Part shown: positions 1 through 16,787 of the stretch, piece by piece
How the letters are laid out: every line of letters begins with the position of its first letter
Position numbering within the stretch: position 1 is the first letter of the stretch
NCBI GenBank assembly: GCA_001899205.1
Contig: MKVL01000035.1
Coordinates: 124,001 to 188,000 of the forward strand
DNA: 64,000 bases
DNA from: Mesorhizobium sp. 65-26
Lineage (GTDB): Bacteria > Pseudomonadota > Alphaproteobacteria > Rhizobiales > Rhizobiaceae
Direction: 5' to 3'
Notes under the pieces: generated by a model
Seen by the model: the letters and a program-made list of their open reading frames with translations, nothing else
Databases searched by the model: none
Told to the model about the DNA's origin: nothing
Position numbers and translations under genes: made by a program

Positions 1-3000
1 CCCCTTACCGATGCCATGGCTGAAGGCGAGTTCCGCGCCGAGGCGCCGGCCAGAATCGCTGTGGATCCCAAGGTCGCGCTTGCGGTTGGTGAGGAGCGAT
101 TCAAGTTGAGGATCGCGTTCGAGGCTCTTGGCCATATCGGACATGGCCGAACGCGTTGACTTGTAGCCGGACATGTCGCCGGCCTGATATTGCTCCTGTC
201 CCGTCCGGTCGAGCTTTTGCCAACGTTCCACGAAACGGTCGGCGCGGCGGATCGGATCTGCGTCCAGTCCGGTGCGGATTTCCGTTTCAAGCTGGAGAGC
301 CAGCACGATGCGATTGACCCGGCCGGCGCTCGCTTCACGAACCAGCTTGGGATTTTTCACATAAGCCGCTTCGGCATCGCGCCAGCCATGCGGCCGCACC
401 TTCTCGAAAGCGCTACGGGCATCCCTCAACTCGCGCATCTGGTCAGGACTGCCCTGCCCGTCCGCATTTGCGTTGTGCAACATCGCATCGAGCGCGCGCG
501 CATGACGCACAAGCGCCTTCGTACGAGCGCTGCGCAATGCCGCTTCCGCGTCCTCCGGAACATTCGTGTCGCGCGGCACTCCAGTGGCGAGATATCCTCT
601 GCCGGGCGTTGGGCCTGCATCTCCGATCTCCGCCCCAACATTCTCCCTTCCCGGACTGCGCCCACGGTCCTGGCCGGGCTCGGCGTCGGCGGGCGAGCGC
701 AATCCGTCCAGCATCCCGCCGATCCTGTCGCGCAACTTCTCCGGAATGATCCGGCGCACGATCTCGACCACGCGCTCGCGGAACGTGATGCCGCGCCGCT
801 CGGCATAGGTCTGCGCCGGGTCGATCTGCTCGTAATCCGAAGCCATGTCCTTGGCGCGGTCCCGTGACAGCGTACGGTCCAGCCGCTCTCTAGTGGCGAA
901 GTCATCGCCGCTATAATGCAGGTCCATCCCGTCGCGATGTCGCGACAGTGCGACGTAGCTGCCATGTGCATCCATGCCCGGCGTGGCGAGCACATGGGTT
1001 CGGTCGACGGTCATGCCCTGCGCCTTGTGAATGGTCGCGGCATAGCCGTGGTCGATGTGCGCGTAGTCTTTCAGGTCGAAGCGCACCGACCTGCCGTCAT
1101 CGGTGCGCACGGTCATGCTCTGTCGGCTGAGCTCCTCCACAATGCCAAGCGTGCCGTTCTTGACGCCTAGCCCGCGCTCGTTGCGCAGGAACATGACCCG
1201 GTCGCCGCGGGCGAAGGCCCTTGCACCGCGTTCGACATTCACTTGCACTTCGTCGCCGAGATCGCCGGCAGCGCGCATGCGCTCGCGCGCTGCCTGGTTG
1301 AGCGCGCGTACTTCGTCATTGGTGTGGGTGAGGATGATCCGGCTTGCCTCTGGATGCGCCTGCCTGTCGCGATCCCAGCGCTCGACGAGTTCAGTTCGCG
1401 CTTCGTCGCGCGTTGCAGCCTGATGCACCATGCCTTGCGCGTCGTAGGCGCTGATGGCGGCGCCGATCCTGCCGGTTGCCAGATCGCGCGTGGCATCGCG
1501 CTGCCAGTCCTCACGCTGCCGGCGCACCTGACCGATTTCGACGCCGCCGTGCCGCTCGTGAATGGAGCGGAATGCAGCGCCGGCTTCGATTGCCTGCAGC
1601 TGCTGTGGATCGCCGACGAGGACGACTTTCGCGCCAACGTCGGCCGCATGGGAGAGCACGCGCTCCAACTGGCGCGTGCCGACCATGCCGGCCTCGTCGA
1701 TCACCAGGACATCGCGCGCGGTGAGCAGATCGCGGCCCTGTCCCCAGCTATGCTCCATACTGGCGATGGTGCGTGACGCGATGCCTGATCCGCTCTCCAG
1801 ATTCTCGGCGGCAATGCCGGAAAGTGCCGCGCCTCGAACCTCATAACCCGCCGCTGCCCATGCCTGGCGCGCAACGCCCAGCATGGCGCTCTTGCCCGTT
1901 CCGGCAAAGCCGACAACGACACCAAGACCGCGTCCATCGGTGATGTGCGCAAGCGCATCGCTCTGCTCGCCCGAAAGGACAAGACCGCGTTGCGCAGCCC
2001 GCGCCAGAGCGGCCTCGCGATGGACCTCACTCACCGCGTGGCGCTCGTCCAAATCGATACGGTCCGCCGCGCGGTGAAGGCGCTGTTCGGTATCGATCAT
2101 CTGCCGGGTGGTGAAGCGATCTTCGCCACGTCCGTCTTTGCCGAGCTCGACCAGATCGGGTGCGTTGCCGATCGCGACCACCACCTCGTTGAACTGCTCC
2201 ATTCCTTCGCTATGGCGATGCGCAAACTTCGCAATGTCTGTTCGGGTGAAGGTCGATTGCTGATGGGTGATGGCATCCAGCGCCACGGATGGATCGGCAA
2301 TGATGCGCGCACCATTGTTGCGCGCGATCTCGCGATGCAGTTCGCTGCGATCTGCTTCAATGTCGCCAGCAGCAAGGCCACTGCCCTCGATGCGTTGAGC
2401 CGGTCCACCAATCTGGGTTTGTGGCTCCAGCGCAATGCCCTGCGCCTCCAGGCTGCGATGATCGATGCGGGCGTCGATGTCTAGTTCGGCCAGACGTTCA
2501 TTGGCCAGCTCCGCCCATCGCTCGCGCCAGCGTTCGACCAGCTGGGTAGCATTCCAGTCGCGAACCTTGGCGCCAAACCCATTCTCGTCCACGGATCGCA
2601 TCGTCAACATGACGTGGGCATGCGGTTTGGGACTGCCATCATCCGCCATGTCCCAGTGCACATTGAGATCGGCGACCATGCCCTGGATGACGAACTCTGC
2701 CTGAACGAAGTCGCGCGCCAGTTCGATGCCTTGCCCCTGGCTGAGTTCACGCGGGAGCGCGAACTCGACCTCGCGGGCAAGCTGGGCGTCCTTCCGCACC
2801 TCGAAGGCCTCGACATCGTTCCACAGCCGTTCGCGGTCGCGCCAGGCTTCGCGTGCATCCTCGGGCAGCATCACCTCGGAATGGACGACACCGCGCTTGG
2901 CGGAGAAGTCGTGGCTGCGTTCGATCCGCTCGTCACGCAATCGCGAAGCCGAGCGGTAGGCGGCCGACGCCACAGCACTCGAGCCTGCCTTCCTTCCAAT

Positions 3001-3030
3001 GACCTTGACGTGAAGATGATAGATCGCCAT
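1..3030 (-). CDS. traA: TraA-type conjugative relaxase/helicase (MOBQ), C-terminus beyond window
   Basis: Conjugative relaxase that nicks oriT, stays attached to the transferred strand and unwinds it. The minus-strand frame is open without a stop for 1010 codons, from ATG at 3030 to the window edge, so the gene is 3' truncated by the window only. The N-terminus is a MobA/MobL domain with the AAYRS motif; the Tyr is residue 25, the catalytic position in RSF1010 MobA. A metal-binding HAHVM motif sits near residue 138. A helicase domain follows, with Walker A GFAGTGKSA near residue 374 and Walker B VLVIDEAG near residue 443. This is the Agrobacterium/Rhizobium TraA architecture. It is divergent from traC-traD, with the likely oriT between them. 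Domain assignment is by motif recognition; the family is very sure, but the C-terminus cannot be seen. Confidence 0.95.
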   Translation of the reverse strand, partial: MAIYHLHVKVIGRKAGSSAVASAAYRSASRLRDERIERSHDFSAKRGVVHSEVMLPEDAREAWRDRERLWNDVEAFEVRKDAQLAREVEFALPRELSQGQGIELARDFVQAEFVIQGMVADLNVHWDMADDGSPKPHAHVMLTMRSVDENGFGAKVRDWNATQLVERWRERWAELANERLAELDIDARIDHRSLEAQGIALEPQTQIGGPAQRIEGSGLAAGDIEADRSELHREIARNNGARIIADPSVALDAITHQQSTFTRTDIAKFAHRHSEGMEQFNEVVVAIGNAPDLVELGKDGRGEDRFTTRQMIDTEQRLHRAADRIDLDERHAVSEVHREAALARAAQRGLVLSGEQSDALAHITDGRGLGVVVGFAGTGKSAMLGVARQAWAAAGYEVRGAALSGIAAENLESGSGIASRTIASMEHSWGQGRDLLTARDVLVIDEAGMVGTRQLERVLSHAADVGAKVVLVGDPQQLQAIEAGAAFRSIHERHGGVEIGQVRRQREDWQRDATRDLATGRIGAAISAYDAQGMVHQAATRDEARTELVERWDRDRQAHPEASRIILTHTNDEVRALNQAARERMRAAGDLGDEVQVNVERGARAFARGDRVMFLRNERGLGVKNGTLGIVEELSRQSMTVRTDDGRSVRFDLKDYAHIDHGYAATIHKAQGMTVDRTHVLATPGMDAHGSYVALSRHRDGMDLHYSGDDFATRERLDRTLSRDRAKDMASDYEQIDPAQTYAERRGITFRERVVEIVRRIIPEKLRDRIGGMLDGLRSPADAEPGQDRGRSPGRENVGAEIGDAGPTPGRGYLATGVPRDTNVPEDAEAALRSARTKALVRHARALDAMLHNANADGQGSPDQMRELRDARSAFEKVRPHGWRDAEAAYVKNPKLVREASAGRVNRIVLALQLETEIRTGLDADPIRRADRFVERWQKLDRTGQEQYQAGDMSGYKSTRSAMSDMAKSLERDPQLESLLTNRKRDLGIHSDSGRRLGAELAFSHGIGKG

Positions 3031-3092: not shown

Positions 3093-3202
3093 CCAAAAAT
3101 TCTCGGGATGGACCAGCCCGTCCCGGGCTGTCTCGGCAACCCTAAAGCCTTCCGGCGGACGCTCAACTATCATCCAGAGATCGACAATCAATGGAGACAG
3201 TC

Positions 3203-3529
3203 ATGCGCAAACCGCGGGACTTCGACGCCGAACTGAAGGCGCTGGAAGACAAGGCGCGAGAGCTCAAAAACAGAAAGGTGCAGCAGCTTGGCGAGCTGGT
3301 GATCGCCACCGGCGCCGATCAACTCAGCACTGACGAACTGGCCGGCGCGCTGGTTGCAATCGCCGAGGCGAACGACGCCACAAAGCGTGAAGCGTGGGCT
3401 AAGCGTGGGGTGATGTTTTTCGAGAGCGGGTCCCGGCGAACTGCTCCGGAATCTCAGCGCAACCCTCGCGGCGCTCCAGCGCAACCGGGCGGCTCACAAT
3501 CGCCGGCAAGCGGCTCTGGCTCGCAATGA
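3203..3529 (+). CDS. traC: TraC-like conjugal transfer protein
   Basis: Small basic protein (108 aa) at the position of traC in Ti/pSym-type transfer regions, divergent from traA across oriT. The N-terminus has a charged helical stretch (ELKALEDKARELKNRKVQQ), then GELVIATGADQLSTDELAGAL, like other TraC proteins. The C-terminus is Gly/Ser/Pro-rich and looks disordered. TraC is thought to act as a DNA-processing accessory. I chose ATG 3203 because GGAG (3193-3196) lies 6 nt upstream; an in-frame ATG at 3191 has no ribosome binding site. The stop is 1 nt before the traD start, so the two are probably translationally coupled. Confidence 0.75.
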   Translation: MRKPRDFDAELKALEDKARELKNRKVQQLGELVIATGADQLSTDELAGALVAIAEANDATKREAWAKRGVMFFESGSRRTAPESQRNPRGAPAQPGGSQSPASGSGSQ

Positions 3530-3530
3530 C

Positions 3531-3779
3531 ATGCGCACCTGGCAGGTCGAGCGTCGCAAGCGCACACGGCAGCTCATCGAACTTGGCGGTCTCGTCGTCA
3601 AGGCAGGCATCGTCGAGCTGACAAATGATGATCGCGCCATCATTTACGGCGCGATGCTTTGGATCGCCGGCAAGCTCCAGAGCCATGAAGGCGGGCATGC
3701 GCGAGACCTATGGGCCACGAAGGGAAAGCAGGCGTTCAATGCTGAACGCCATGAAGAGCAGATGAGCCATCGACCGTAG
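3531..3779 (+). CDS. traD: TraD-like conjugal transfer protein
   Basis: An 82-residue protein with the TraD family core: RRKRTRQLIELGGLVVKAG followed by a short helical region (IIYGAMLWIAGKL). It follows traC directly and is expected to assist DNA processing or coupling during conjugation. In Ti-type elements traG, the coupling-protein ATPase, follows traD. Here the next gene is an unrelated DUF2971 protein, so the transfer operon looks cut short or rearranged. The last codons plus stop overlap a 14-bp sequence that recurs at 13724-13737. Confidence 0.8.
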   Translation: MRTWQVERRKRTRQLIELGGLVVKAGIVELTNDDRAIIYGAMLWIAGKLQSHEGGHARDLWATKGKQAFNAERHEEQMSHRP

Positions 3780-3998: not shown

Positions 3999-4739
3999 AT
4001 GAATTCGAATAATATGTTGGATATCCCCGATCCTGACGCACCGCTTTACCGCATTTTTTCCAAGAAGCGGTTTCTAGAGGTGGTTCAGGATCGACAGAAC
4101 CCACTTGTAAAGCCGCGCCTGTGGGACGATCCTTTCGAGAACTTTTTTCTACGCTCTGAAATATCGGATCCCAGCGGCAACAAAATATCGATTGAGGGGC
4201 TCGCCGAGGATTGGTACGGCCAGTGCTGGACTCTAAACGAAGACACCGATGCGATGTGGCGGATTTACAGCCATGAAAAGAATGGCATCAAAGTCCGAAC
4301 CACGATCCGTAAGCTGTTCGAGAGCTTCTACGATGCCACCGATCACTATGCGGCTCTGAAGTTCTTCATCGGCATGGTGAAATATCAAAAAGAAGCTGAG
4401 ATCGCTAACTTCATGGGAAGAACCAGCTTCACCGATATCGCCTTCGGCGGCCAGGCGACAGGCTTTGCGAGGCTCTTGTGCGTGAAGCGCGAAGCCTTCG
4501 AGCATGAACGTGAGGTTCGGCTGTTGTTCCAGGACACCGATCCCAGGCGAAGCACGGGAAATGTAGTTCGCTTCGATTTTGATGTGAACGCCATCTGCGA
4601 CGAGGTTACAGTAGATCCCCGGCTCGACGCTGCCGGTGTTGCAGCGCTTAAGTCGGAAATCATGGCCGCCGGATGCACCATCCCCGTTTCGCAATCGACA
4701 CTGTACCGGATGCCAAAATTCACCTTGCGGCTTGGCTGA
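3999..4739 (+). CDS. DUF2971 domain protein
   Basis: A 246-residue soluble protein with hallmarks of the DUF2971 family: an N-terminal LYRIFSKKRFLEVV segment, LWDDPFENFF (the usual W/NDPFE), CWTLNEDTDAMWRIYS (the usual CWS...MWxxY), and a C-terminal basic/acidic stretch with HEREVRLLF. The molecular function is not established. Members often sit in mobile or defence-associated loci. It is the first gene after traD and converges on the next gene with an 18-bp gap. It uses more AT-rich codons than the flanking tra genes, consistent with separate acquisition. Function unknown. Confidence 0.8.
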   Translation: MNSNNMLDIPDPDAPLYRIFSKKRFLEVVQDRQNPLVKPRLWDDPFENFFLRSEISDPSGNKISIEGLAEDWYGQCWTLNEDTDAMWRIYSHEKNGIKVRTTIRKLFESFYDATDHYAALKFFIGMVKYQKEAEIANFMGRTSFTDIAFGGQATGFARLLCVKREAFEHEREVRLLFQDTDPRRSTGNVVRFDFDVNAICDEVTVDPRLDAAGVAALKSEIMAAGCTIPVSQSTLYRMPKFTLRLG

Positions 4740-4757
4740 TCTTCGCGCGAGCGAAGG

Positions 4758-5948
4758 TCAGGGGTCTGTCCGATCGTCGGCGATTTGATAGCCGTGGAGG
4801 TCACGCCCTTTCACTTCGCGGAACGGAAAATTGCTTTCGAGGATGCGTTGATACTCCGGGTCTTCCATCCACGCATGGGCGACGAGGCACCAAAGGATAT
4901 CGAAATACTCACCGTCTTTGGCCACGAGGATTCCGACGCACTTCGATAGGCGCCGGTCGTATTTGTGCGCCTCGACAAGCTGCCGTAAGCCGCGAACCCG
5001 CATCACTGGCCAATCCTGGTGTGCGACCCATTCCGGATCAGCCGGAATGAAAACAAAGCCGCAACCGGTCGCGGGAAAGGTGAACCGGTAAGGCTGTGCA
5101 AATTCGCCTTTTTGCGTCTTCTCGACGCAAAGCTTTATCCGCTCTTTTACAGCACGCCAGGCCGACCGGGGAAGCTTCGCAAACTCCAGGAGAATGTCGT
5201 AATAGTCGTCGCTCAGCTCCGGCACCGAAAGATGGTTATGCAGCCCGCGCAAGAACGGCGCCAGGTTCCATTCATGCTCGTCGTCAATAAGCCGGCGAAC
5301 GAAATCCGCAGACGACGCCGTGGGAGCCAGGTTGGGGTCGCCTCCGATGAAGTGGCCGACGATAGCCGCTTCGCTGAGCGCTGCGCTGTTCGCAAATTCT
5401 GTAAGAACCATTTCACGATAGCGGAAATAGCGCACGACCTCCTCGGGAACGCGAAGCAAGCGCGATAATTCGAGGTAGTCGCCTGCATCGATGATGTGAA
5501 TAAAGCCCTCGGTCTTGCTGACGTGATGGCGAAGGCGGCGGCAATCCTCGGGTAGATTCGGAGACGGTAGATAAATAACGACTTTCAAGACATCCTTGAA
5601 GGCAGTCGCCGCCAGATTGAAGATGCGGCCGCGTTCATTCGGAACAGGGATATCCGGGCAGCTTCGCAGGTAGCGCAGCGTTTCGCGCACCTGTTTCACG
5701 GCCTTTCCGCGCACCTTGTTTTCGAACCAGCGGCGCTCGGCCTCTGCGTCGCCAGCATCAGCGCTCGCGCGTTCCTTGATTTGATAGATCAGCAACACAT
5801 CGCCCAGCATGACGACGGCGTCGGCAAATTCCACTTCGCTCGATGCCGGCGGCTTGAACGTCGTCCGGGCGAAAGTGAATTCCTCCAGAAACAGCAGGCT
5901 ATGGAGATGCTGGCTGATGAAAGTTTGTACGTCGGCGGCGGCGGTCAT
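4758..5948 (-). CDS. putative PD-(D/E)XK nuclease-like protein
   Basis: A 396-aa protein of no family I can name. Residues 40-58 read EVEFADAVVMLGDVLLIYQIKE. This gives E40, D43, Q56 and K58 in the order E-x2-D-x(12)-Q-x-K on two hydrophobic strands, a layout typical of restriction-like nucleases with Gln replacing the usual Glu. A Lys/Gln-rich helix (GKAVKQVRETLRYL) follows, as in that fold. The rest is alpha/beta with no clear motif. I chose ATG 5948; a longer frame to 6059 has a low-complexity, arginine-rich N-terminus. It lies 125 nt downstream of the SEC-C protein gene and may share its transcript. Nuclease activity is inference. Confidence 0.6.
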   Translation of the reverse strand: MTAAADVQTFISQHLHSLLFLEEFTFARTTFKPPASSEVEFADAVVMLGDVLLIYQIKERASADAGDAEAERRWFENKVRGKAVKQVRETLRYLRSCPDIPVPNERGRIFNLAATAFKDVLKVVIYLPSPNLPEDCRRLRHHVSKTEGFIHIIDAGDYLELSRLLRVPEEVVRYFRYREMVLTEFANSAALSEAAIVGHFIGGDPNLAPTASSADFVRRLIDDEHEWNLAPFLRGLHNHLSVPELSDDYYDILLEFAKLPRSAWRAVKERIKLCVEKTQKGEFAQPYRFTFPATGCGFVFIPADPEWVAHQDWPVMRVRGLRQLVEAHKYDRRLSKCVGILVAKDGEYFDILWCLVAHAWMEDPEYQRILESNFPFREVKGRDLHGYQIADDRTDP

Positions 5949-6073
5949 GGGATCGCAACAACGTTGGGGGAAGCCGGTTTTTCGGCTTATCGAGTATCGC
6001 ACCCGCGAACGGTTGCGGGCAAGCAAACACGAAACCAACCAGGATCGAAGCATCGGCAACAGACGCAGCGACG

Positions 6074-7210
6074 CTAGAACGTCTCCTGTATCCGATCATG
6101 GTTTTTGAAAGCATTGAACAGATCGGCAATGTCTGGATGAGATTCGCTGAGCACGGGCATGTCAGGGGTGAACTCAGGCCGATTGAACCCGGTGAAAGCG
6201 GTCTCCGGCCCGACATAGTAGTCATCCAGCATCATGTGGTTTGCAGGCAGGTTTGTGAAAACAAGGAGCCCACGGGTTCCGGCGGGCAATTTTCCTGGCT
6301 GCGCCTCCACGGCGCGGATTGAAGCGACGGCATCTTCTTGCCACCAAACACCTTCGCCGGGCCATTCCGGTGCGGGCGGCAGATTCATATCGATAAATAC
6401 CAACCGGTCGTCGTCGGCGGGCTTGGCAAGGGCCTCCCGCAGCAAGCGATCAACTTTTCCCTTCATGCTCTCATTGGCGGGCCTTTCCCCGGGTTTTCCC
6501 AAGAGCCCCGGCCTGCCCTTGGCCTTCATTTCAACTGCGTACCGCTTGCCGGTTCTTTTGTGTACCGCAAGCCCATCGCAATGCGCCGAAGTCGAATCCT
6601 CTTCATCGGAGAACTCGAAGGTGAACCCGGCGCGTACCAGGCAAGCCGCGATCATCAATTCGTAACGCGCGCCGTGAAACTGATCCGCGACGCGCAACGA
6701 CTTCACCAGCCGGTCGCGCTGATTGGTATTGTCGGCGATAACGAAAAGGTCGTTGGCCACGGTCAAGAAATTCAGAACGGCAACCGTCGAGGCAAGCCCG
6801 CGGTTCGCGCCCAGATGCTGCCTGGCCTTCGCCTGTGCCCGCATCGCTGTCCACCAGACGTGCAAAGGGTGCTGGGTATTTTGCCCGAATGCCTCGCCCA
6901 TTTCCCGCAACAGGTCACTTTCGAGAAAATTCAGAAAGTGCGGCCCGCCGCCCCAATGGATGACCTTCTCCCCACGGACAACCAACCGGCCGCCGCCCTC
7001 GCCCGTAACAAGCGGTGGGCGGTGCAATCCATGGATTGCGTAATGCTCGGCGCGCGCCTTCTGTTGCCGGTCAAACGCATCCCGCACATGCTGCGGCGTG
7101 GTATGCCAATTTTCAATCGGCGAATCCAATGTGTGCACCGACCATGCCCCGTGACAGTGCTTGAAGCGCCTTCCGCTGCCGCAAAAACATCTCTCGTTGC
7201 GTGTCGGCAC
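6074..7210 (-). CDS. SEC-C motif protein with PD-(D/E)XK-like nuclease domain
   Basis: A 378-aa protein. The N-terminus is a SEC-C zinc-binding motif: CFCGSGRRFKHCHG, ligands C8, C10, C19 and H20, as at the C-terminus of SecA and in many stand-alone proteins. A nuclease-like core follows: E184, D212 (CDGLAV) and E227-M-K229 (AVEMKAKGR), the order and spacing of PD-(D/E)XK enzymes. The start is GTG at 7210. It overlaps the TAG stop of the upstream ParB-like gene (TAGTG), so the two are translationally coupled. This is probably a nucleic-acid-processing or defence effector. The biological target is unknown. Confidence 0.65.
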   Translation of the reverse strand: MPTRNERCFCGSGRRFKHCHGAWSVHTLDSPIENWHTTPQHVRDAFDRQQKARAEHYAIHGLHRPPLVTGEGGGRLVVRGEKVIHWGGGPHFLNFLESDLLREMGEAFGQNTQHPLHVWWTAMRAQAKARQHLGANRGLASTVAVLNFLTVANDLFVIADNTNQRDRLVKSLRVADQFHGARYELMIAACLVRAGFTFEFSDEEDSTSAHCDGLAVHKRTGKRYAVEMKAKGRPGLLGKPGERPANESMKGKVDRLLREALAKPADDDRLVFIDMNLPPAPEWPGEGVWWQEDAVASIRAVEAQPGKLPAGTRGLLVFTNLPANHMMLDDYYVGPETAFTGFNRPEFTPDMPVLSESHPDIADLFNAFKNHDRIQETF

Positions 7211-7629
7211 TAGGTCACCACGGGCAAATGGGAAAAGCCGGCAGCTACCGACGCATAGAAACGGTGGACGCCGTTGAGGATACGATACCGATAAGGCGAA
7301 CGCGTGAGGTCGATGACCGGCATCTCTGTCACCGGCACGGGCGGAATTTCGTGTCCCTGCACAACGCCTTTTAAGATTTCAACAAACCGCCCGCGATCAA
7401 AGCCGCGCCACGTCAGGGGATGACTAATCAGCCGGGACGGCGGCTCGATTTCGGTAAGCAGAACCCTGGTTGCGCCGAAGGAGCGGTAGGATTCCTGGCC
7501 GGGACTGAAACCCGAAAACCCTGCTTCAGAAATCCACTCGTCTGGGATTTCGAAATCGCACGGAAAATGCGGCATGGAATAGCGCATGGGAAAAGGCATC
7601 TCTGGTGATCGAGGTGATGCCATAAACAT
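7210..7629 (-). CDS. small ParB/Srx-like protein
   Basis: A 139-aa protein. The C-terminal stretch RILNGVHRFYASVAAGFSHL followed by PVV resembles the ParB N-terminal/sulfiredoxin fold signature (usually DGxHRxxAxxxxGxxxxPV). An upstream region, PVTEMPVIDLTRSPYRY, fits the preceding beta strands. Such domains can bind nucleotides (CTPase) or DNA. Here the domain stands alone without a helix-turn-helix. It is coupled to the SEC-C nuclease gene by a one-base stop/start overlap, suggesting a two-protein module. Several in-frame ATGs (7629, 7623, 7599) are possible and no ribosome binding site decides among them. Confidence 0.55.
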   Translation of the reverse strand: MFMASPRSPEMPFPMRYSMPHFPCDFEIPDEWISEAGFSGFSPGQESYRSFGATRVLLTEIEPPSRLISHPLTWRGFDRGRFVEILKGVVQGHEIPPVPVTEMPVIDLTRSPYRYRILNGVHRFYASVAAGFSHLPVVT

Positions 7630-7793
7630 AGGTTTCAGCCCGCCTTGCTACAACATTGGCGAAAGCCGGGATTTTAAGCCTCCGAGTATCGCGACCAATG
7701 ATTTCGCAACGCTATCGTTTCGCGGGCGCGCCTCTAAGCGCTGCCTACACAATAGGCTCGGAACCCGCACACAGTCGGACAAAGGGGCCAATT

Positions 7794-8819
7794 TTACTGT
7801 TTGGGCTTTGCCCCTACGCCTTCGGCGGGAACGAGCGAGATTGTCGGCATCATTACGTCCTCGATCTTCGGATCGTTGATGTCGCCCGGAACCTCTATCG
7901 TCATCCGAAATTTGCCGGTCATTTTCTGAGGCACGTAGGTGCTAGGAAACAGCATTTCCCCAGGCTGCAACGATTTGCCACCGTTGGTGAAAGCGATCTG
8001 AACTGCGCCGAAAGCGGCCTTGCCAATGAAGTCCACAGCCTTTGCGAAAGAAAACTTCGGCTGCCTTGCCGTCAGTGTCTCTTCAATCGCTTCTCTGGCC
8101 TCGCCATGCATCAGCGCGTTCCGAATATGGAAGAAGAACTCAATCACTTCTTCGCTAAAACCGAGCCGTTCAAACAAAGCCCGGATGGCCTGCTTTTCGA
8201 ACGGCCGATGCTCGGAAACTTTGCCGCATGAACTGCAAACCAGACCGCCCCCACATTTCTGGCATTTATCGGTTACTTTGGCGGTAGATTTCGTGGCGAC
8301 CGCTACCGTTTCAACCACGAACCAGAAATATTGGAACTGATCCTCCATCGTCGAGGCGCCTACCCCGTTGGCAAACCACATCAGCGCGGCCTCGGCTAGC
8401 GCATTAGGGCCTTCCTTTTGAAGGTTTTCTACGGTCTTCAGAAGACCAGCGCTTAAGGCTTCAATCGGCGGTTCGCCATACGCCGAGGAATAGAAATAAG
8501 CGTCGCGTTGCTCAAGGCCAGGCGTCCAGTTGATCAGCCGCAGCAGCCGATGAATCCGAAACTGGCTGTTGGTGACGAAGCTTAGGAGATGCAGGAATTT
8601 TCTCAGCGTTCGCCGTGCCAATTCTTCGGCTTGGTCGATATCTTCCGCCTGAAAAATGACCTGTATTTTCAAATTGGCGTCCGCGTCGTCGCTCGCGGCG
8701 GAATCGGAAATATGAACCTCGTAGCTGCCATCCGGAGCGGAATAAGACAGCTTTTTGCTCTCCCCTGTGAGGGAAACAGTGGATCGAACAAGAAAATCGG
8801 CAATGAACTTATCTGGCAT
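7794..8819 (-). CDS. zinc-ribbon protein with HEPN-like C-terminal motif
   Basis: A 341-aa soluble protein I do not recognise by name. A four-cysteine zinc ribbon lies at C186-x2-C189-x5-C195-x2-C198. A helical segment then carries HIRNALMHGEA, where R233 and H238 form the R-x4-H pattern characteristic of HEPN ribonuclease domains (RNxxxH form). The N-terminal half is beta-rich, followed by helices. HEPN proteins are frequent toxins or antiviral effectors, which suits the surrounding cargo. ATG at 8819 has GAGCGGGA just upstream. It is separated from the next minus-strand gene by 164 nt, so it may be a separate transcript. RNase activity is inference from one motif. Confidence 0.55.
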   Translation of the reverse strand: MPDKFIADFLVRSTVSLTGESKKLSYSAPDGSYEVHISDSAASDDADANLKIQVIFQAEDIDQAEELARRTLRKFLHLLSFVTNSQFRIHRLLRLINWTPGLEQRDAYFYSSAYGEPPIEALSAGLLKTVENLQKEGPNALAEAALMWFANGVGASTMEDQFQYFWFVVETVAVATKSTAKVTDKCQKCGGGLVCSSCGKVSEHRPFEKQAIRALFERLGFSEEVIEFFFHIRNALMHGEAREAIEETLTARQPKFSFAKAVDFIGKAAFGAVQIAFTNGGKSLQPGEMLFPSTYVPQKMTGKFRMTIEVPGDINDPKIEDVMMPTISLVPAEGVGAKPKQ

Positions 8820-9092
8820 TCCCGCTCACCGTTTTATGCGCGTGCATACAGCCGACCAGTTGGCCGCGCTGGCGATTCGGCAGTTTGCGAAGCGCTTGGG
8901 GTCTATTCCTAGCTGAATGATGTCGAAATCCGCCGGCATCTGGCCCTCAAATTAAAAACCTGCGGAAAAATCCTAAATGGAAGGCGGCAAGCGCAGGGGA
9001 TGTAATACTATGGATTCTATTGTTAGTTCTAGTTATGTTCGCATTTTCCCACATAAAGTAGGCGCTTGAATTTCGCCCCAGGAAATTGCCGC

Positions 9093-11636
9093 GTGGACAA
9101 AGACATTCAAGATTCGATCAAGGCCGGCGAACGGAACCGCGCGGCCGTGGAGCTTGTGCGCAACTGGTGCGCGCATGCGAAAATCGAAAAATATGGCGGC
9201 GTCGGCATGATCGAGGAGGCCACGGGCCTGCCGATCGGTCTTCATGGTTTGAAATGCGACCATGCCAATGCTGGCGGCACGTTCACATGGGATTTGCACG
9301 AAGCGGCGCTGGATTTCTACGACCGGAATTGCGTCGATTGTAAAAATCGAAAGCCCGTCGGCATCCCCAACCTGTTGAGCCTGGTCAAGGAGCGGGAAGA
9401 GCGACGGGCACAAGAAGCCAAAGACGCCGCCGAAGCCGAAGCACGGCGTGTGGAAGTGCAGAACGCCCGACGGCTGGTTCGCTCGCAGTTGCGCGCAGAT
9501 TTGGGCTCGCTTTCCAATACGATTGTCGACAACATCGACGAATACGATGACCACCGCGACGATGAACACCGCGAGCGGCTTTGCGAAAGCGCGCGGCTCG
9601 CGCCGGAACACTTTAGCCAGCCGATTATCGAATACATTTTCGCCTTGGCCGAGCAGGAACCATGGTTTGTCGAAGCCGGGCTAACCGTTCTCGATTATCT
9701 GAACGCCGATCCGGCCCGCATTGCGAAAATAGCCCTGTCATCCATCGCCCGCGCCAAGCCAACAGCTGAAACGGCGCGCGTGATTTTAAGCAGGCTTTCG
9801 ATAGCAGACGCCAATCTGGTGACCGAGGCACTACCCAACGTCATCGAGCGCGCTTCCCCTTATGATCACTATGGATTTGGCCGCGCGCTTCCGTCGCCGG
9901 AACCCGGCCTGCTGCTTGGCGCCTGGAAAACGCATCAGGCGGCTGTTCGGGAGGGATTGGATAGGCTGCTCTCTTCCCGGCAAACGTATTCGGCCGAGTT
10001 GGCCGCCCGCGGCTTGATGGTATTGCAGCAAGACGACCCCAACGCCATGCATGGCTTCTTGCGGACGATGGTGTCGAAATTTTCTCGTGCCGAATTGCTG
10101 CTGGACGATTTTGACGAACGCCACGGAGCTTTTCGGCATCTGCGTGACGCGCTGGCAATGGCTTTCGCGGCCTTTCCCGATGAAATCGACACTTTGGTGC
10201 AGGAATTCATCGCCCATTCGGATCGCAACACGAAGGATCGTGCGTACAAAATCTATGAGGCGCCGTTGCGCGGTCATCGCCATGACGAGCCGCCGATCTC
10301 GCCAGAATCACGGGTGCACCGTCTATGTTTTAAGCGCCTTCTGTGGGCAACCACGACAGAGGAGAGCGAAAAAATCCTGGAATGCGCGCGTGAGGTTTTC
10401 CGGGGCCGCCCTTATGAGATGACTGATATTGCCCGCGTGGAACTGGACGGATTACTTGGAGCTATCCTGCTTCTTGACGACCGGCTGCGTCGCCACGACG
10501 AAACGGCGGTACCCAAAGACGAAAATCTTCTGGGAGCTATGCAGCGAGACCATCGGCGTAGCACTATCACATCCCTCATTACGTCGCTGATTGAATGGGC
10601 AAGCGTTGCTGCCAAGGGCGATCCCGTGCTGGTCAAAAAAGTCGTCGGATCTTTCGACCAAATCCCTGACGGCCGGGATCATCTCAAAGGCATGATGCTG
10701 ACTTGCATCGAGCATGTCGGGCAGACGGTCGAAGGGCTCAACTTGGTGCTGCCCCACCTTTATTCCGGCCTTGTTGGGAATTCCGTCGCGGTAAGGGCCT
10801 ACGCGGCAGCGGCACTGGGCAAAGCGCCACAAGAAAACGTTCCGCCGCTTGTCTACGAAGCCTTCTCGGTTTTGTTGTCGGATCAATATGTCGCCGTCCA
10901 CAAGGCGGCCGTCCGAGCGCTCGGTTACTTCCAGCTTCCGGAGAGCGTTCAGAACCGGGCGGCACAAGCCTTGCTGAATTTGATCCACCACTATTCGCAA
11001 AAAACGGGCAAAGATGATTTCCTGATCGATTGCGTGGAACGCCTGGCCTATGAACTCCGCCGCGTTGACGACACAACTGGCGGAGTTGCAAAATACCTCG
11101 TCCAGGTAATGCTGGGTATTGAACCGCTTTACCTAAGGAGCAGCCTGCGTTCGATGGGCAGAATTTTTGGCGAGACCGAAGGTTTTGTCGATCTTTTAAT
11201 CAAGCTTATTCCGGAGAGCGACGACCGCGACCATCGAAGCGACGAGCTGCATCTTCTGGCAGAATTGCCGAACGAAGCAATCCTATCCCGCAAAGCCGCT
11301 CTTGAAAAATTAGGCGTGGATATCGGGCTGAACCGTCCATGGATCGCACTTCACATTGTCGAGGTGCTTGGCCGGGCCGGCGCGCTGGCCGAAGCACACA
11401 AAATTGCCGAAGCATATGTCACCCGGCCAGATGCGACGGTTCACAACCAATGGCAGCGAATAAGAATGAAGTCCGTGGAAATTGCTACGGCGTTCGAGCA
11501 GGCCATCGCGGAGGGTCGGCGGGGGGATTTGCAGGCCCTTGCAGATCGGTGGGAAGAGAACGCTCAACAGGACAAGGAATTCCAGGCCGATGTCGAAAAA
11601 CGCAATTCTCGATCACGTTTTTCCCATCCGCTCTAA
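9093..11636 (+). CDS. large HEAT-repeat-like helical protein, partner of downstream nuclease
   Basis: An 847-aa, almost entirely helical protein. The N-terminal part (about residues 35-85) has a Cys-containing module, CDHANAGG and later CVDCKN, that could bind metal, followed by a charged coiled-coil stretch (EREERRAQEAKDAAEAEARR). The remaining roughly 650 residues look like HEAT/ARM repeats, for example YAAAALGKA, VHKAAVRALGYFQLPESVQ and repeated helical pairs. No enzymatic motif is seen. I chose GTG 9093 because AGGAA lies 8 nt before it; an in-frame TTG at 9066 lacks a ribosome binding site. The 3' end overlaps the nuclease gene by 47 bp. It is probably a scaffold or sensor for that nuclease (inference). 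Confidence 0.65.
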   Translation: MDKDIQDSIKAGERNRAAVELVRNWCAHAKIEKYGGVGMIEEATGLPIGLHGLKCDHANAGGTFTWDLHEAALDFYDRNCVDCKNRKPVGIPNLLSLVKEREERRAQEAKDAAEAEARRVEVQNARRLVRSQLRADLGSLSNTIVDNIDEYDDHRDDEHRERLCESARLAPEHFSQPIIEYIFALAEQEPWFVEAGLTVLDYLNADPARIAKIALSSIARAKPTAETARVILSRLSIADANLVTEALPNVIERASPYDHYGFGRALPSPEPGLLLGAWKTHQAAVREGLDRLLSSRQTYSAELAARGLMVLQQDDPNAMHGFLRTMVSKFSRAELLLDDFDERHGAFRHLRDALAMAFAAFPDEIDTLVQEFIAHSDRNTKDRAYKIYEAPLRGHRHDEPPISPESRVHRLCFKRLLWATTTEESEKILECAREVFRGRPYEMTDIARVELDGLLGAILLLDDRLRRHDETAVPKDENLLGAMQRDHRRSTITSLITSLIEWASVAAKGDPVLVKKVVGSFDQIPDGRDHLKGMMLTCIEHVGQTVEGLNLVLPHLYSGLVGNSVAVRAYAAAALGKAPQENVPPLVYEAFSVLLSDQYVAVHKAAVRALGYFQLPESVQNRAAQALLNLIHHYSQKTGKDDFLIDCVERLAYELRRVDDTTGGVAKYLVQVMLGIEPLYLRSSLRSMGRIFGETEGFVDLLIKLIPESDDRDHRSDELHLLAELPNEAILSRKAALEKLGVDIGLNRPWIALHIVEVLGRAGALAEAHKIAEAYVTRPDATVHNQWQRIRMKSVEIATAFEQAIAEGRRGDLQALADRWEENAQQDKEFQADVEKRNSRSRFSHPL

Positions 11637-13041
11637 GGCGGTTCTTGCCCTGCAGGCAGCGGGATCGCGTGAAGATGCGGCGGCGTTTGAGACGCTCGCG
11701 CAGGATGCAAAAGGCGTGGCCGTGGCGTTCGGAGACGCGCCTGCGGCGAAGCATTGGATTGCCTTATCGACCGCGCTTGAGATCGTGCGCTTTCTGGTCG
11801 AATGGCAAGAAGCGCTGCTTACCGCCGGTATCGACGCTGATCGCTTTTTGCGTACAGCGCGGTTGCGGTTGAGCCAACTTCGAGAAACGCCGGATCCCGA
11901 TTTATTCGTCGCGCGCCTTATCGAAGTCCTCTCCGTCATCGATGGCGCGTTCAACATGTCGATGATCGGGCATTTGCGGCAGCAAATTGCCGGCATTCCA
12001 TTGCCGATTGGTATTTTTTCCGATCCCCCCTTCGAGCGGCCCGATTGGGCGCGCGAGCAAAAGCAAAAACCGAAGGACGAAAAGCCCGATCTCACCGTTG
12101 CCTTCGTTGAGTTTAAAATCAACGGAACCACTGCCGAGCGCGTTCAAACCCTGCGCCCGCGAGAAACCCACGATCTCGACATCGCGGTGCGGGTCTCACG
12201 CTGGCCGGAAACGGCAAGCAGCTTGGTATTAAGTCCGGTTTCCCTGGAACCGCGCGACAGCTACGATCTTCCGAGTTTCCGGTTCCTGCGTCCGTCCGGC
12301 GAGCCTCCCCACTTCTTCCAGCAACACGGTAGGATGATTCTGCACGCGCCGCAGAACCTCAAAGCGCGCCCGTTCGAATTCATGTATTCGGCGGAGTTTC
12401 AACCGACGTCTTCGGAAAGGCCTGTCTCGATTGCCGGACAAAGAACCCTTCGGCTGGATGGGTCTGAGCCCAGCCGCCAACCTATAACCGGATACCCCGG
12501 CATCGACAGAAAGCTTGTCGCGATACGGGACTCCTTACGCCTCGAGCCGCTTATCCCCGAAAGCGATCTTGAGGATCTGCTTACCGTTCTCGTTCCCCTT
12601 GCCAACCTGGTGGGGCAAGCGGTGCAAGATAACCTGTTTCCGAAGGTCATTTCTGAAGCCGAGTTTCAACGGCAGGTGCGAGAATGGCTTCGGCGGGAAG
12701 CAACCATTGGCGCAGGGCTTGAGGAGCAAGCCCATTCGACGGGGGGCCGAACCGACTTATCTTTCAGAGGCGTCCGCATAGAACTCAAATCGGAAACGGC
12801 GAAGAGATTGCTTCCGGATGACTGCAAGCACTACGCTTCGCAGCCGGCAAGCTATGCAGTTGGAACCAACCGACGGGTGGCCGTGCTAAGTGTTCTGGAT
12901 TGCAGCCCGAAAAAAGAGGTGCCTTTTCCGATAGAAGACGGGTTGTGTGTGTATCCAATCGATACCGGCACCACCCCCGTGTATATCGTGTGCTGCCTGA
13001 TTCAAGGGAATTTGGCAAAGCCAAGTTCGCACTCGCGCTAG
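11590..13041 (+). CDS. PD-(D/E)XK nuclease-domain protein paired with HEAT protein
   Basis: A 483-aa protein. The N-terminal 150 residues are helical, and the middle is beta-rich with no family I recognise. The C-terminus has a convincing PD-(D/E)XK core: a helix EAEFQRQVREWLRRE, then GGRTDLSF with D389, and RIELKSE with E398-L-K400. A further strand has ASYAVGTNRRVAVLSVLD. The spacing D-x8-E-x-K is typical for restriction-like and Cap4/Mrr-type nucleases. The start ATG 11590 lies inside the HEAT gene (47-bp overlap, different frame), so the two are almost certainly co-translated. No neighbour in the same direction follows closely. The substrate is unknown. Confidence 0.7.
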   Translation: MSKNAILDHVFPIRSKAVLALQAAGSREDAAAFETLAQDAKGVAVAFGDAPAAKHWIALSTALEIVRFLVEWQEALLTAGIDADRFLRTARLRLSQLRETPDPDLFVARLIEVLSVIDGAFNMSMIGHLRQQIAGIPLPIGIFSDPPFERPDWAREQKQKPKDEKPDLTVAFVEFKINGTTAERVQTLRPRETHDLDIAVRVSRWPETASSLVLSPVSLEPRDSYDLPSFRFLRPSGEPPHFFQQHGRMILHAPQNLKARPFEFMYSAEFQPTSSERPVSIAGQRTLRLDGSEPSRQPITGYPGIDRKLVAIRDSLRLEPLIPESDLEDLLTVLVPLANLVGQAVQDNLFPKVISEAEFQRQVREWLRREATIGAGLEEQAHSTGGRTDLSFRGVRIELKSETAKRLLPDDCKHYASQPASYAVGTNRRVAVLSVLDCSPKKEVPFPIEDGLCVYPIDTGTTPVYIVCCLIQGNLAKPSSHSR

Positions 13042-13069
13042 CAGATTGTTATGGCGTCAAGCCAACCCC

Positions 13070-13726
13070 TCAGTCTGGCATGTCAACCATGGCGCCCGGC
13101 TCCCGGTCAACAAGCCCCCAAAAGCGCGTTACAGCGCGCATGTAACGCATAAAGTCGTTGTCGGAGAGCTGGATACCTTCGCTGAGAATGGCGTGTTCTT
13201 CAGACTTTGCAGCGACGGTGTTGTCCGCATAGCGCCAAAGGTGCGGAGCACGGTCACGCAACTTGGTCAGAGAACCTCCGTCGCCATGCCGCACGGCGTT
13301 TCCCAACAGGTGCAATTCCTCGATTGTCACTCTTACCTGGCCGGTTTCCAAGTCGAGGCCATGACGTAAACCCACGCCTCGGACAAGTTTATTGATCTCC
13401 ACGGTGGCAATACCTGCACGCCGATCTTCTGAGACATGCACCCTGGCCCAAATCCGGAGTTGGCGCTCAAAGAGACCGTCAAGTGTGAGCGCGAAGCTGC
13501 GCCGCGCTTCGAAAGCAAGCATGTTCGACGTGTGCATTTGGGCGTGTTCGAGAAACTCCGCCATAGATGCCGCAAGCCCGCTGGTCTTTACGCCGCTATG
13601 GAGTGGCAGGTTGTCCAGCGCAGGCAGCAAGACGCGCGTGTAGAAACGGTGGATGTCGGCCTGAAAAATTCGAGGCAATAGATCTTGGGGCATAGGCACC
13701 GCTTGAATCCAAAATCGCTGCTGCAT
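13070..13726 (-). CDS. hypothetical protein, HEPN-like
   Basis: A 218-aa helical protein of no named family. The segment EELHLLGNAVRHGDGGS resembles the conserved helix of HEPN/MAE_28990-like proteins (N-x2-R-H-G-D-G-x-S). The strict R-x4-H catalytic spacing is absent, so it may be non-catalytic. An alternative start is the ATG at 13693 (MPQDLLPRIFQ), which removes 11 residues; neither has a strong ribosome binding site. It converges on the HEAT-nuclease pair with 28 bp between the stops. Function unknown; an antitoxin, toxin or regulator of the neighbours is possible. Confidence 0.5.
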   Translation of the reverse strand: MQQRFWIQAVPMPQDLLPRIFQADIHRFYTRVLLPALDNLPLHSGVKTSGLAASMAEFLEHAQMHTSNMLAFEARRSFALTLDGLFERQLRIWARVHVSEDRRAGIATVEINKLVRGVGLRHGLDLETGQVRVTIEELHLLGNAVRHGDGGSLTKLRDRAPHLWRYADNTVAAKSEEHAILSEGIQLSDNDFMRYMRAVTRFWGLVDREPGAMVDMPD

Positions 13727-14018
13727 CGACCGTAGCGAAGATGCAGGCAGACGGCCACACGAGAACTACAGCGTCAGACTTTGGCTTAGCCTACCGACGA
13801 GATTCAAGGCCAGGATCCAGCACCCCTCTCTGCTTCCATCGCCAACTCGATGACATGCTTGCAGGCGCCGACGGACATGATAAGTGCGCATCACGCTGCA
13901 GCGACCGTTGAGAAATACCAGGCCCTATTCAGCATGAGTACCGGGATAATTTGGAACATCTCAATCTGTTCATGATAGTCGGCTCCTCGGCACCATTTGC
14001 TTACTGGGCGCACGAAAC

Positions 14019-16787
14019 GTGGCTTTGACCAAATTGCTATCTGGCCGCTCGCGCACCTACCGCCCTGGCTTCTTTGCGCGGTTCTTTCCGGCAGGAAAAT
14101 GGAAGCTGACCCTAGACCCGAAAATCTCGGGGCATTTCCGGCTGGCTCAAGATAGCGATGTAGAGCTTAGCTGCCTCGATATTGTGTCAATTTCCGTAAG
14201 CAAGGCCCTATTGTGGCACACCGTTGAGATACGAGCTCGCGGCAGAACAAACACTCTTTCGGCACTATCGGGTGAAGCGGCCGCACAACTGGCCGCAGAC
14301 CTTCATTCCTTCATCAACACTCACCTCTTTGGGTTGATCGCCACCGAGAAGAATCGCCTGCTCGATGTCGACGAAAGGCTTCGCGAGCTTACTGAAGGCA
14401 ACAGACAGTATCTTGCACAGGCCGATCTAGCCAGGGCTGTTGCCGGAGTCCCTGGCGCCGCAGCGGCGGCCCTATCTCACCCGCTTCTAAACGCAGACAT
14501 GATGCCGGCAGGACTGAAGGCCTCCCTTCCGGCCTCGTTCGCCATGATAACGGACCCGGGCGTTCGTCATGCCTACAACGAGGCTTTCGTCAGCTCGGAA
14601 TTGAGCAGGTTCCAGTCCTTTTTCGACGACCTCGACCGGCGTTCGTTTTCCGACCAGCAGCGCGAGGCCTGTATTCGCCTGGAGGACAACAACCTGCTGG
14701 TGGCCTCGGCAGGCTCCGGCAAATCCGCGACGATGGTCGGCAAGGTCGCCTACGTCCTGGAAAAGCAACTCTATCGGCCCGACGAGATTCTACTCCTGGC
14801 CTTCAATAGAAACGCAGCCGATGAACTCAGGACAAGGATCGCAGCGCAGTTACAGGTCGCGGAGGACGCCCTGGAGTGTCGGGTCACTACATTTCATGCT
14901 CTCGGACGCGGAATCATTGAGGAGGTCGAAGGTCGGCCACCGCAGCTCGCCAACTGGGTGGATCATCCCGCTGGCGAAACCAGGGTCATCGAGGCGATAA
15001 TCCAGAACCTTGTCGAGAGCGATCCGGAATTTGCCCGGATGTGGGCCGAGCTTCTCGTCGTGCATCCCAAGGCCGACATCCCGATAGAGGTATTTGACGG
15101 GGAGGCCGACTACCGGCGCTACGTATCGGACACCCTTAGAAAGGGTAGTGCCACGATCGGTTCCTTGTCCGCAGTGATCGTAAAGTCGTTGCAGGAGAAG
15201 AAGATCGCCAACTGGCTTTGGCTGCATTCAGTCGCCTTCGAATACGAACGGCAAATTCCGGTGGAGGAAGACGATGGCAGCGTCCGCCATCTGCATCCAG
15301 ATTTCTACTATCCGCAGACCGAAACCGTGCATGAGCATTTCGCGCTCGATGCGGACGGAAGCTCACCCTTTGCGGACTACGCCAAACACGCCGAGAACAA
15401 GCGGCAGGCATATCGCCGCAATGAGATCGATTTCTTCGAGACCACTTCCGCTCAAGCCAGCGACGAGACGCTGCTCAGCACGCTCGAGTCCGAACTGACG
15501 CGTCGCTCAATACCTTTCGAACGCAAGAGCTACGCCGAAATCACCAAGGCGCTCGATCCGGTGATTATCAAGCACTATCATCAGCTGATATCCACCTGCT
15601 TAAAGCACATACGTGCCAGCCACCTCACGCTCGACATGTTGCTCGAACGTGCCAAGACCTTGCACGACAAGGAGCGTGCGAGGCTGTTCGCGCGCGCGGT
15701 CTGGCTGATCACTCAAGGGTATTCCCGAAAGCTCGAGGAAGCGAAACGGATCGACTTCGATTCGATGATCGCGGATGCGGTCCGGCTGGTCGAGACTGGC
15801 CGATATCGAAGTCCCTATTCCCTCATTCTCGTGGACGAGTTTCAGGACATTTCCGAGCCGCGCGCCAACCTGATCAAGGCGCTCAAACAGCAGAAAGCGT
15901 TCAGCAAGGTCTTCGCGGTCGGAGACGACTGGCAGTCGATCTATCGCTTTGCCGGATCGGACATCACGATCTTTACACGGTTCGAAGCGAACTTCGGGAC
16001 CAGTTGGCAGGGGCGCCTGGAGCAGACGTATCGCTGTAACCAGCTTATTGCCGAGACAGCCGCTAAGTTCGTCCAGCGCAATCCTGAACAGATCAAGAAG
16101 TCAGTCCGCTCGACGCGCCCAGCCGTCTCGCGATCAATCCGCGTCATTCCCATCGATGATAAACGCGACAATCCAGACTTTGCGGTGGCATGTCATCGCC
16201 TGCTCGAACGGCTTGATGGCGCTCTGGGGGGCATTGCCAACCGGTGGCGCGACGAAAAGCGCGACAAGCTTAAGGTTCTGGTTTTGTGGCGCTACAACGT
16301 CCTCGATCCTTTTAAAGGACGGCCGCCGTCCTTTGCAAACATCGAGGTGGCCGGGCTGTCGTTTCACCGGGCCAAGGGCCTTGAGGCCGACTACACGGTG
16401 CTGCTCAACGTCAGCGAGGGCAATTACGGCGTACCAAGCCGCATCGAAGACGATGAGCTGCTAAATCTGGTCATTCCCCGCCCCGAGACCTTCGCTTACG
16501 CCGAAGAACGGCGCTTGTTCTACGTGGCGCTGACGCGTGCCAGCCGCGGCGTCTATATGATCACCAATCGCCGTCAGCCATCGCGCTATATCCAGGAGCT
16601 TTGCGAGATCGCTGGCGACGAAGTTCGCTTCGAGACGATTGAGGGGGCCGAATTGAGCCAATGTCCGGCTTGCCTCGTCGGCCAATTGGTTGAGCGACGC
16701 AACAAAGACGGATCGATATTTCGTGGGTGCAATCAGTTTCCGGACTGCAAACACACTGAACCGGCGAACGTAGTGCGAAGACGGTAA
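14019..16787 (+). CDS. UvrD/Rep-family DNA helicase, helicase IV (HelD)-like, with C-terminal zinc ribbon
   Basis: A 922-aa superfamily 1 helicase with 3'-5' polarity expected from the family. The first roughly 200 residues resemble the accessory N-terminus of E. coli helicase IV (ISVSKALLWHTVEIRARG). Walker A is ASAGSGKSATM near residue 226, motif Ia includes AFNRNAADELR, motif II is LVDEFQDIS near residue 603, motif III is GDDWQSIYRFAGS, and motif VI is RRLFYVALTRA. The last 40 residues add a topoisomerase-I-type zinc ribbon (CPAC...C-x5-C). The start is GTG 14019; no better start is seen. The gene stands alone on the plus strand. It may serve DNA repair or processing, or belong to the defence-like cargo. 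Confidence 0.85.
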   Translation: MALTKLLSGRSRTYRPGFFARFFPAGKWKLTLDPKISGHFRLAQDSDVELSCLDIVSISVSKALLWHTVEIRARGRTNTLSALSGEAAAQLAADLHSFINTHLFGLIATEKNRLLDVDERLRELTEGNRQYLAQADLARAVAGVPGAAAAALSHPLLNADMMPAGLKASLPASFAMITDPGVRHAYNEAFVSSELSRFQSFFDDLDRRSFSDQQREACIRLEDNNLLVASAGSGKSATMVGKVAYVLEKQLYRPDEILLLAFNRNAADELRTRIAAQLQVAEDALECRVTTFHALGRGIIEEVEGRPPQLANWVDHPAGETRVIEAIIQNLVESDPEFARMWAELLVVHPKADIPIEVFDGEADYRRYVSDTLRKGSATIGSLSAVIVKSLQEKKIANWLWLHSVAFEYERQIPVEEDDGSVRHLHPDFYYPQTETVHEHFALDADGSSPFADYAKHAENKRQAYRRNEIDFFETTSAQASDETLLSTLESELTRRSIPFERKSYAEITKALDPVIIKHYHQLISTCLKHIRASHLTLDMLLERAKTLHDKERARLFARAVWLITQGYSRKLEEAKRIDFDSMIADAVRLVETGRYRSPYSLILVDEFQDISEPRANLIKALKQQKAFSKVFAVGDDWQSIYRFAGSDITIFTRFEANFGTSWQGRLEQTYRCNQLIAETAAKFVQRNPEQIKKSVRSTRPAVSRSIRVIPIDDKRDNPDFAVACHRLLERLDGALGGIANRWRDEKRDKLKVLVLWRYNVLDPFKGRPPSFANIEVAGLSFHRAKGLEADYTVLLNVSEGNYGVPSRIEDDELLNLVIPRPETFAYAEERRLFYVALTRASRGVYMITNRRQPSRYIQELCEIAGDEVRFETIEGAELSQCPACLVGQLVERRNKDGSIFRGCNQFPDCKHTEPANVVRRR

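Follow-up and report, generated by a model that had tools for sequence, protein, structure and literature searches.

A Mesorhizobium gene pair joins a HEAT-like protein to a putative nuclease related to LmuA of Lamassu: a probable two-component defence cassette

Lamassu is thought to act by abortive infection, as stated in excerpts of a review (PMC10586767), and in the excerpted text of PMC12409362 LmuA is released on activation and tetramerises, whereupon its Cap4 nuclease is activated. Lamassu is also treated in PMC12904381. For a second system, Olokun, the excerpts of PMC10121019, PMC12926258 and PMC12629846 only list it or its distribution, and among the papers listed by a search of the open-access literature none dealt with its mechanism or with a pair made of a HEAT protein and a nuclease. 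Here we compare with both systems two overlapping genes, P0001 (encoding an 847-residue protein, the scaffold) and P0002 (encoding a 483-residue protein, the nuclease), from a 64,000-nucleotide stretch of Mesorhizobium sp. 65-26 (GCA_001899205.1, contig MKVL01000035.1, positions 124,001 to 188,000; hereafter the window). The pair is probably a two-component anti-phage or anti-mobile-element defence, because a nuclease-type domain of this kind is also seen in the Lamassu anti-phage system. This reading draws on homology and genomic context; the pair would fit the known kind of a sensor plus a nuclease effector, as an established member of neither Olokun nor Lamassu. The features of the pair are as follows.

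9080..9083, + strand: AGGA, a possible ribosome-binding site 9 nt 5' of the GTG, read from the sequence
9093..11636, + strand: scaffold gene P0001, 847 residues, GTG start at 9093; HEAT-like helical repeat protein
9093..9401, + strand: N-terminal Cys/His module of the scaffold (C26, H28, C55, C80, C83), its best conserved part
10752..10988, + strand: HEAT-like repeat stretch of the scaffold, residues 554-632 (HEAT_2, E = 0.0013, under the Pfam cut-off)
11590..11636, + strand: overlap of the scaffold and nuclease genes, 47 bp
11590..13041, + strand: nuclease gene P0002, 483 residues, ATG start at 11590
12649..13038, + strand: PD-(D/E)XK-type nuclease domain at the C-terminus (residues 354-483), with a relationship to LmuA-type C-termini
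12754..12756, + strand: D389, candidate catalytic Asp, invariant
12781..12789, + strand: E398-L-K400, ExK motif, E and K invariant
12841..12855, + strand: Q418-x3-Y422, QxxxY motif, Q and Y invariant

An earlier sequence-only reading of the window had proposed an 847-residue helical scaffold with an N-terminal Cys-containing module, followed by a 483-residue protein whose gene overlaps it by 47 bp. Both genes and the overlap were confirmed, and the Cys module proved to be real and strongly conserved. In many relatives a methionine aligns at the start point of the scaffold or within three residues of it (some starts were set by hand). The nearest long open reading frames (ORFs) taken for genes lie on the - strand on both flanks, and the pair looks like a lone two-gene unit on the + strand; scans for promoters and terminators around it returned chance-level matches only.

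The same reading had picked out D389, E398 and K400 in the second protein, and these residues are as it gave them. Together with Q418 and Y422 they are unchanged in all 15 aligned pair nucleases, a set that includes the window protein and excludes that of locus L028, which is cut by a contig end. The D, ExK and QxxxY elements are therefore present, in order and invariant, a combination that we take to mark the PD-(D/E)XK (restriction-endonuclease-like) fold, and we infer that the C-terminal domain is an active DNA nuclease. The family PDDEXK_9 (PF08011) matched two of 14 aligned C-terminal domains from pair and LmuA-type proteins (best E = 0.00099), whereas the window's own domain had no PDDEXK match. 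The N-terminal and middle parts of P0002 matched no family in Pfam, PADLOC, NCBIfam or PHROGs except the Olokun model.

This domain connects the pair to Lamassu. P0002 matched the PADLOC LmuA model PDLC03853 (E = 1.7e-13) and a hidden Markov model (HMM) of five LmuA-type C-termini (E = 3.3e-8). Tested on 11 of the 17 available pair nucleases with the search size nominally set to 10,000, the latter found all 11 (best E = 3.3e-10, weakest 0.017), while 11 shuffled and 105 decoy proteins gave no match at E <= 10. Comparing 13 pair nucleases with five LmuA-type proteins, hhalign gave 97.2% (E = 3.6e-11) over 177 columns. When eight C-termini of pair nucleases were aligned with six of LmuA type, 13 columns were invariant, all five motif residues among them (14/14). 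At the level of sequence profiles, the C-terminal domain of P0002 is thus shown to be related to the LmuA-type C-termini of Lamassu-like loci, with the same invariant D-ExK-QxxxY. The likeness to Lamassu is confined to this effector-type domain: no SMC-like LmuB gene and no LmuC gene lies beside the window pair, whose neighbours are - strand genes without SMC matches, and a relationship of the scaffold to LmuA was rejected (1.8%).

A profile of the domain matched seven of 339 genomes: two carry the pair (one being the window's own), four carry 644-680-residue frames, and one has a 190-residue frame on a short contig. Surroundings were read by eye for the five non-pair loci and for G892. L025, L057, L058 and L061 show the Lamassu order, with the domain protein placed after a small gene and an SMC-like gene; at L060, SMC-like pieces are spread over two ORFs, and at L059 no small or SMC-like gene was seen on the 4-kb contig. 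The SMC-like and small genes were named by our own reading, and the identity of LmuA was checked with PADLOC at L025 only (522.7 bits). The L025 locus appears to hold a Lamassu-like operon at 4603-15249, with LmuA at 7203-9107; after LmuA come the gene of an 803-residue protein and two genes that by eye resemble those of an ATPase and a helicase, which may be another system.

The scaffold is best conserved at its N-terminus. C26, H28, C55, C80 and C83 are invariant in 16/16 scaffold rows, window included, and 24 of the 103 positions of the module are invariant across 10 rows. In a 13-row alignment, residues 1-120 hold 23 invariant positions and a second conserved stretch, residues 541-600, holds nine. 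A profile of the module run against 329 genomes found two matches only, both in pair-bearing genomes and one of them the window's own; its sole sequence match in the PDB was weak (E = 0.18). Because of its residue types we would guess that the module binds metal. The label 'helical, HEAT-like' given to the scaffold in the sequence-only reading is fair, although weak by family score: four Pfam HEAT models match within residues 554-632 (E = 0.0013-0.044), all under their curated cut-offs, with a best score of 19.4 bits against a cut-off of 27.7. The best PDB sequence matches of the scaffold are alphaRep designs (E = 0.004), which we take to be HEAT-like.

The pair travels as a unit. Species genomes were scanned with two peptide patterns derived by aligning four scaffold sequences, a search that pattern-less relatives would escape, and 62 stretches matched, 14 of which encode scaffold relatives. 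In 13 of these 14 the scaffold is whole and the nuclease lies directly behind it in the same order (L028, with its nuclease cut by the contig end, is counted here). The fourteenth, L041 of Lysobacter ruishenii, retains the scaffold gene only down to about its first 35 residues (10001-10105), beside an ORF read as an IS3-type transposase. Both of two near-identical viral contigs, found through the nuclease alignment, carry the two genes in the same order, one with a VapE-like primase gene 3 kb from the pair; three more viral scans returned the same two contigs. Conservation of the pair in other genomes, which the sequence-only reading had left to be checked, is borne out by these counts. Searches of Pfam, NCBIfam and PHROGs, the last two unproductive, assigned neither window protein to a housekeeping family. 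The nuclease start precedes the scaffold end in 17/17 pairs, with an overlap of 23-56 bp (the 17 include the two near-identical viral copies, and some start codons were set by hand).

The main clades are common to the scaffold and nuclease trees, while the fine branching differs and the placement of the window pair has modest support (87/88 and 84/85). Transfer is suggested by an Achromobacter copy that falls, in the scaffold tree as in the nuclease tree, within the Xanthomonadales-type clade. Within that clade the ratio of non-synonymous to synonymous substitution rates was 0.16-0.20 for the scaffold (10 pairwise comparisons of 5 copies) and 0.09-0.18 for the nuclease (15 pairwise comparisons of 6 copies), showing that both genes are under purifying selection in this one clade of relatives.

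The cassette is rare and scattered across bacteria. Judging from their record titles, the genome relatives come from Alpha-, Beta- and Gammaproteobacteria and, in one case, from a Verrucomicrobium. The nuclease matched in 4/397 genomes of the order: the window's own, two more with pairs and one with an LmuA-type protein. Among plasmid records the scaffold had no match and the nuclease a single partial one, to its C-terminus at 56.5% identity, on a plasmid of Rhizobium sp. WSM1274 (L007, ~6875-7467). No relative was found among phage records or in the 26 stretches returned by a single-protein scan of genome contigs, and the DNA of one member, L036, had no match in E. coli by distant blastn. Such a patchy distribution, with the scaffold in only 1/146 genomes of the genus (the window's own), would also suit an addiction cassette of mobile elements in which the scaffold is the antitoxin of a DNA-cutting toxin and any defence is incidental, as would the overlap of the two genes and their setting in GC-poorer DNA not far from a relaxase. 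We regard this as unlikely: a scaffold of 847 residues with 23 invariant positions in its first 120 seems more than an antitoxin would need, and the kin of the nuclease are LmuA-type effectors.

PADLOC would file the pair under Olokun. Its OloA model (PDLC03925) matched the scaffold at E = 2.3e-48 (164 bits) and its OloB model (PDLC03926) matched the nuclease at E = 1.2e-46 (158 bits), and two relatives of each gene scored 145-170 bits. Both genes are matched, and the plan is shared: the gene of a helical protein comes first and is overlapped by that of a nuclease-like protein. These observations would be expected if the pair were a divergent true Olokun whose two forms lie too far apart for profile methods. 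Proteins of another form, however, score 288-688 bits on the same models, and the OloB score of P0002 is about 4-fold lower in bits than those of the two best members scanned. Direct comparison revealed no homology between the pair and this other form: hhalign gave at most 0.9% for 13 pair scaffolds against seven other-form upstream-gene proteins and at most 0.3% for 13 pair nucleases against nine other-form OloB proteins, in both directions, against 100% for the positive control, and HMM searches between the two sets returned nothing at E <= 1 in either direction. The forms also differ in layout. Other-form OloB proteins have an invariant GVD...K near the N-terminus (nuclease-like by our reading), whereas the signature of P0002 is C-terminal, and the pair scaffold has 847 residues with a Cys/His module compared with 596 residues for the two OloA proteins scored.

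Models that we trained ourselves suggest how one model could match both sets. An HMM of the nine other-form OloB proteins gave a single match among 11 new-family proteins, at 1.8 bits (E = 18), whereas a mixed model trained on eight other-form OloB and three new-family proteins scored three held-out new-family proteins at 88-112 bits and a held-out OloB at 628 bits. This score pattern resembles that of PADLOC, although the scores are lower and split into two stretches. We infer that PDLC03925 and PDLC03926 were trained on both protein sets and so pool two unrelated ones. The divergent-Olokun explanation is accordingly improbable in our view. We decided against calling the pair Olokun solely for its PADLOC match, because direct comparison with the higher-scoring proteins fails, and the label would probably mislead. 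The claim of the sequence-only reading that no described system has this pair was too strong, since Olokun models match both genes and the nuclease domain is of the Lamassu effector type; what stands of it is that the pair shows no sequence relationship to the higher-scoring Olokun proteins. The other form was found in 2/5,426 complete E. coli genomes (69% DNA identity) and gave 34 matches among plasmids, of which 13 span at least 80% of the protein. A relationship of this higher-scoring OloB form to LmuA was rejected (0.1%).

In the window the pair has mobile and candidate defence genes around it, a setting that supports the defence reading. The surrounding genes in question are as follows.

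1-3030, - strand: TraA-type relaxase (MobA_MobL, E = 2.7e-70)
3191-3779, + strand: two TraD genes, with the relaxase at the left end of the window
3999-4739, + strand: DUF2971 protein, matching the PADLOC candidate defence family PDC-S31 (E = 3.3e-83), in the same island as the pair
4758-5945, - strand: protein with a D...YQIKE motif, by eye
6074-7210, - strand: SEC-C protein with a D...VEMK motif, by eye
14019-16787, + strand: UvrD-type helicase gene with a C4 zinc finger, 1 kb downstream of the pair

The products of 4758-5945 and 6074-7210 are possibly two further nuclease-like proteins in the same island. The guanine-plus-cytosine (GC) fraction is 0.55-0.59 across about 3-18 kb of the window and mostly 0.61-0.71 elsewhere, and at third codon positions it is 0.61-0.69 in ten island genes versus 0.74-0.91 in four genes to the right. 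The location had been described as mobile, AT-richer DNA next to a relaxase; the DNA is indeed GC-poorer, but the relaxase lies about 6 kb from the pair and is not adjacent. The best plasmid DNA matches to the first 20 kb of the window come from Mesorhizobium. The UvrD gene has 89.6% DNA identity to one on M. amorphae plasmid pM0123d that adjoins a SIR2 gene and is about 7.5 kb from a nucleotidyltransferase-ThiF-Mov34-SAVED operon; we read that operon as CBASS-like and the region as a putative defence hotspot.

Neighbours of the relatives were picked mechanically, up to five ORFs per side (142 ORFs, 16 loci), and 132 ORFs of 15 loci were scanned; the other ten were all 7 of L043, which is nearly a copy of L042, together with two from L042 itself and one from L024. 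The resulting tables give the first 25 of 107 PADLOC and of 105 Pfam families as raw tallies by family rather than by locus, with no enrichment claimed. Among the matches listed, PADLOC families at E <= 1e-10 include PDC-S06, HerA, DUF4297, AbiEi and RmrA, and Pfam families include three integrases and two KfrA proteins; no PADLOC family occurs in more than 2/132 of the ORFs and no Pfam family in more than 3/132, so that neither a helicase nor a methyltransferase recurs as a partner. When ten large neighbours were scanned singly with PADLOC, that of L028 had a strong, specific match to PDC-S06, weaker matches were found for one protein each in L024 (ThsA-like), L032 and L033 (PifA/QatA), and the L035 neighbour had helicase-type matches.

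These neighbours bear on a further explanation, that P0002 is a direct restriction-like or DNA-repair nuclease serving a mobile element without abortive infection. The QxxxY signature is found in RecB-like repair nucleases, and downstream of the window pair, at a distance of 1 kb, there is a gene for a UvrD helicase. Genes of that UvrD type are found on other plasmids without the pair, however, and the lack of a recurrent helicase or methyltransferase partner, even though L035 has a helicase neighbour, makes this explanation very unlikely.

Several observations weigh against a defence system built as we propose. P0002 matched no Pfam family up to E = 10, PDB sequence searches with it gave no solved nuclease, and no recognisable ATPase or sensor enzyme is present within the pair. 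The effector domain of LmuA is described as N-terminal in the excerpted Lamassu review (PMC10586767), whereas the related domain of P0002 is C-terminal. Several neighbour ORFs are ordinary metabolic genes, many such families being among the Pfam matches listed, and five of the ten large neighbours scanned singly had no PADLOC match. The L028 PDC-S06 neighbour, on the opposite strand, also matches LmuB (E = 2.4e-15), and in L037 (Xanthomonas sp. AmX2) an SMC/AAA-like gene of 1015 residues (6860-9907, + strand; SMC_N E = 1.8e-7, under the cut-off) shares the strand of the pair and stands 85 bp upstream of it. Neither gene is a recurrent partner; for the close relatives L034-L036, L038 and L039, no ORF of the size of the L037 gene is listed just upstream.

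Beyond the defence reading itself, we lean, with confidence a little above even, towards an unnamed and distinct system in which a Lamassu-type nuclease is under the direct control of a HEAT scaffold bearing an invariant Cys/His sensor module, no SMC ATPase being involved; current annotation would hide this system under an unrelated Olokun label, since the Olokun profiles would pool two unrelated protein sets. On our main reading, that of a two-component defence, the scaffold would take the place held in Lamassu by the SMC protein LmuB and LmuC; it is the best candidate for restraint and sensing because the nuclease domain is related but no SMC gene stands beside the window pair. The scaffold would be made first, with the nuclease following in step through translational coupling, an order that would fit a restraint needing to exist before its toxin. 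It may bind the nuclease through the N-terminal and middle parts of the latter and keep it silent. The HEAT surface or the Cys/His module could then capture a phage-derived signal, either a protein or a DNA structure, that frees or clusters the nuclease; the nuclease would degrade DNA and halt phage production, probably sacrificing the cell.

If this is true, the nuclease domain would be a plug-in effector for at least two unrelated control units, the SMC complex of Lamassu and a HEAT/Cys scaffold, and the silencing and release of such nucleases would be testable in a simple, ATPase-free two-protein system. Two systems may also be lumped together in Olokun counts obtained with the PDLC03925 and PDLC03926 profiles, a concern for any survey of defence content.

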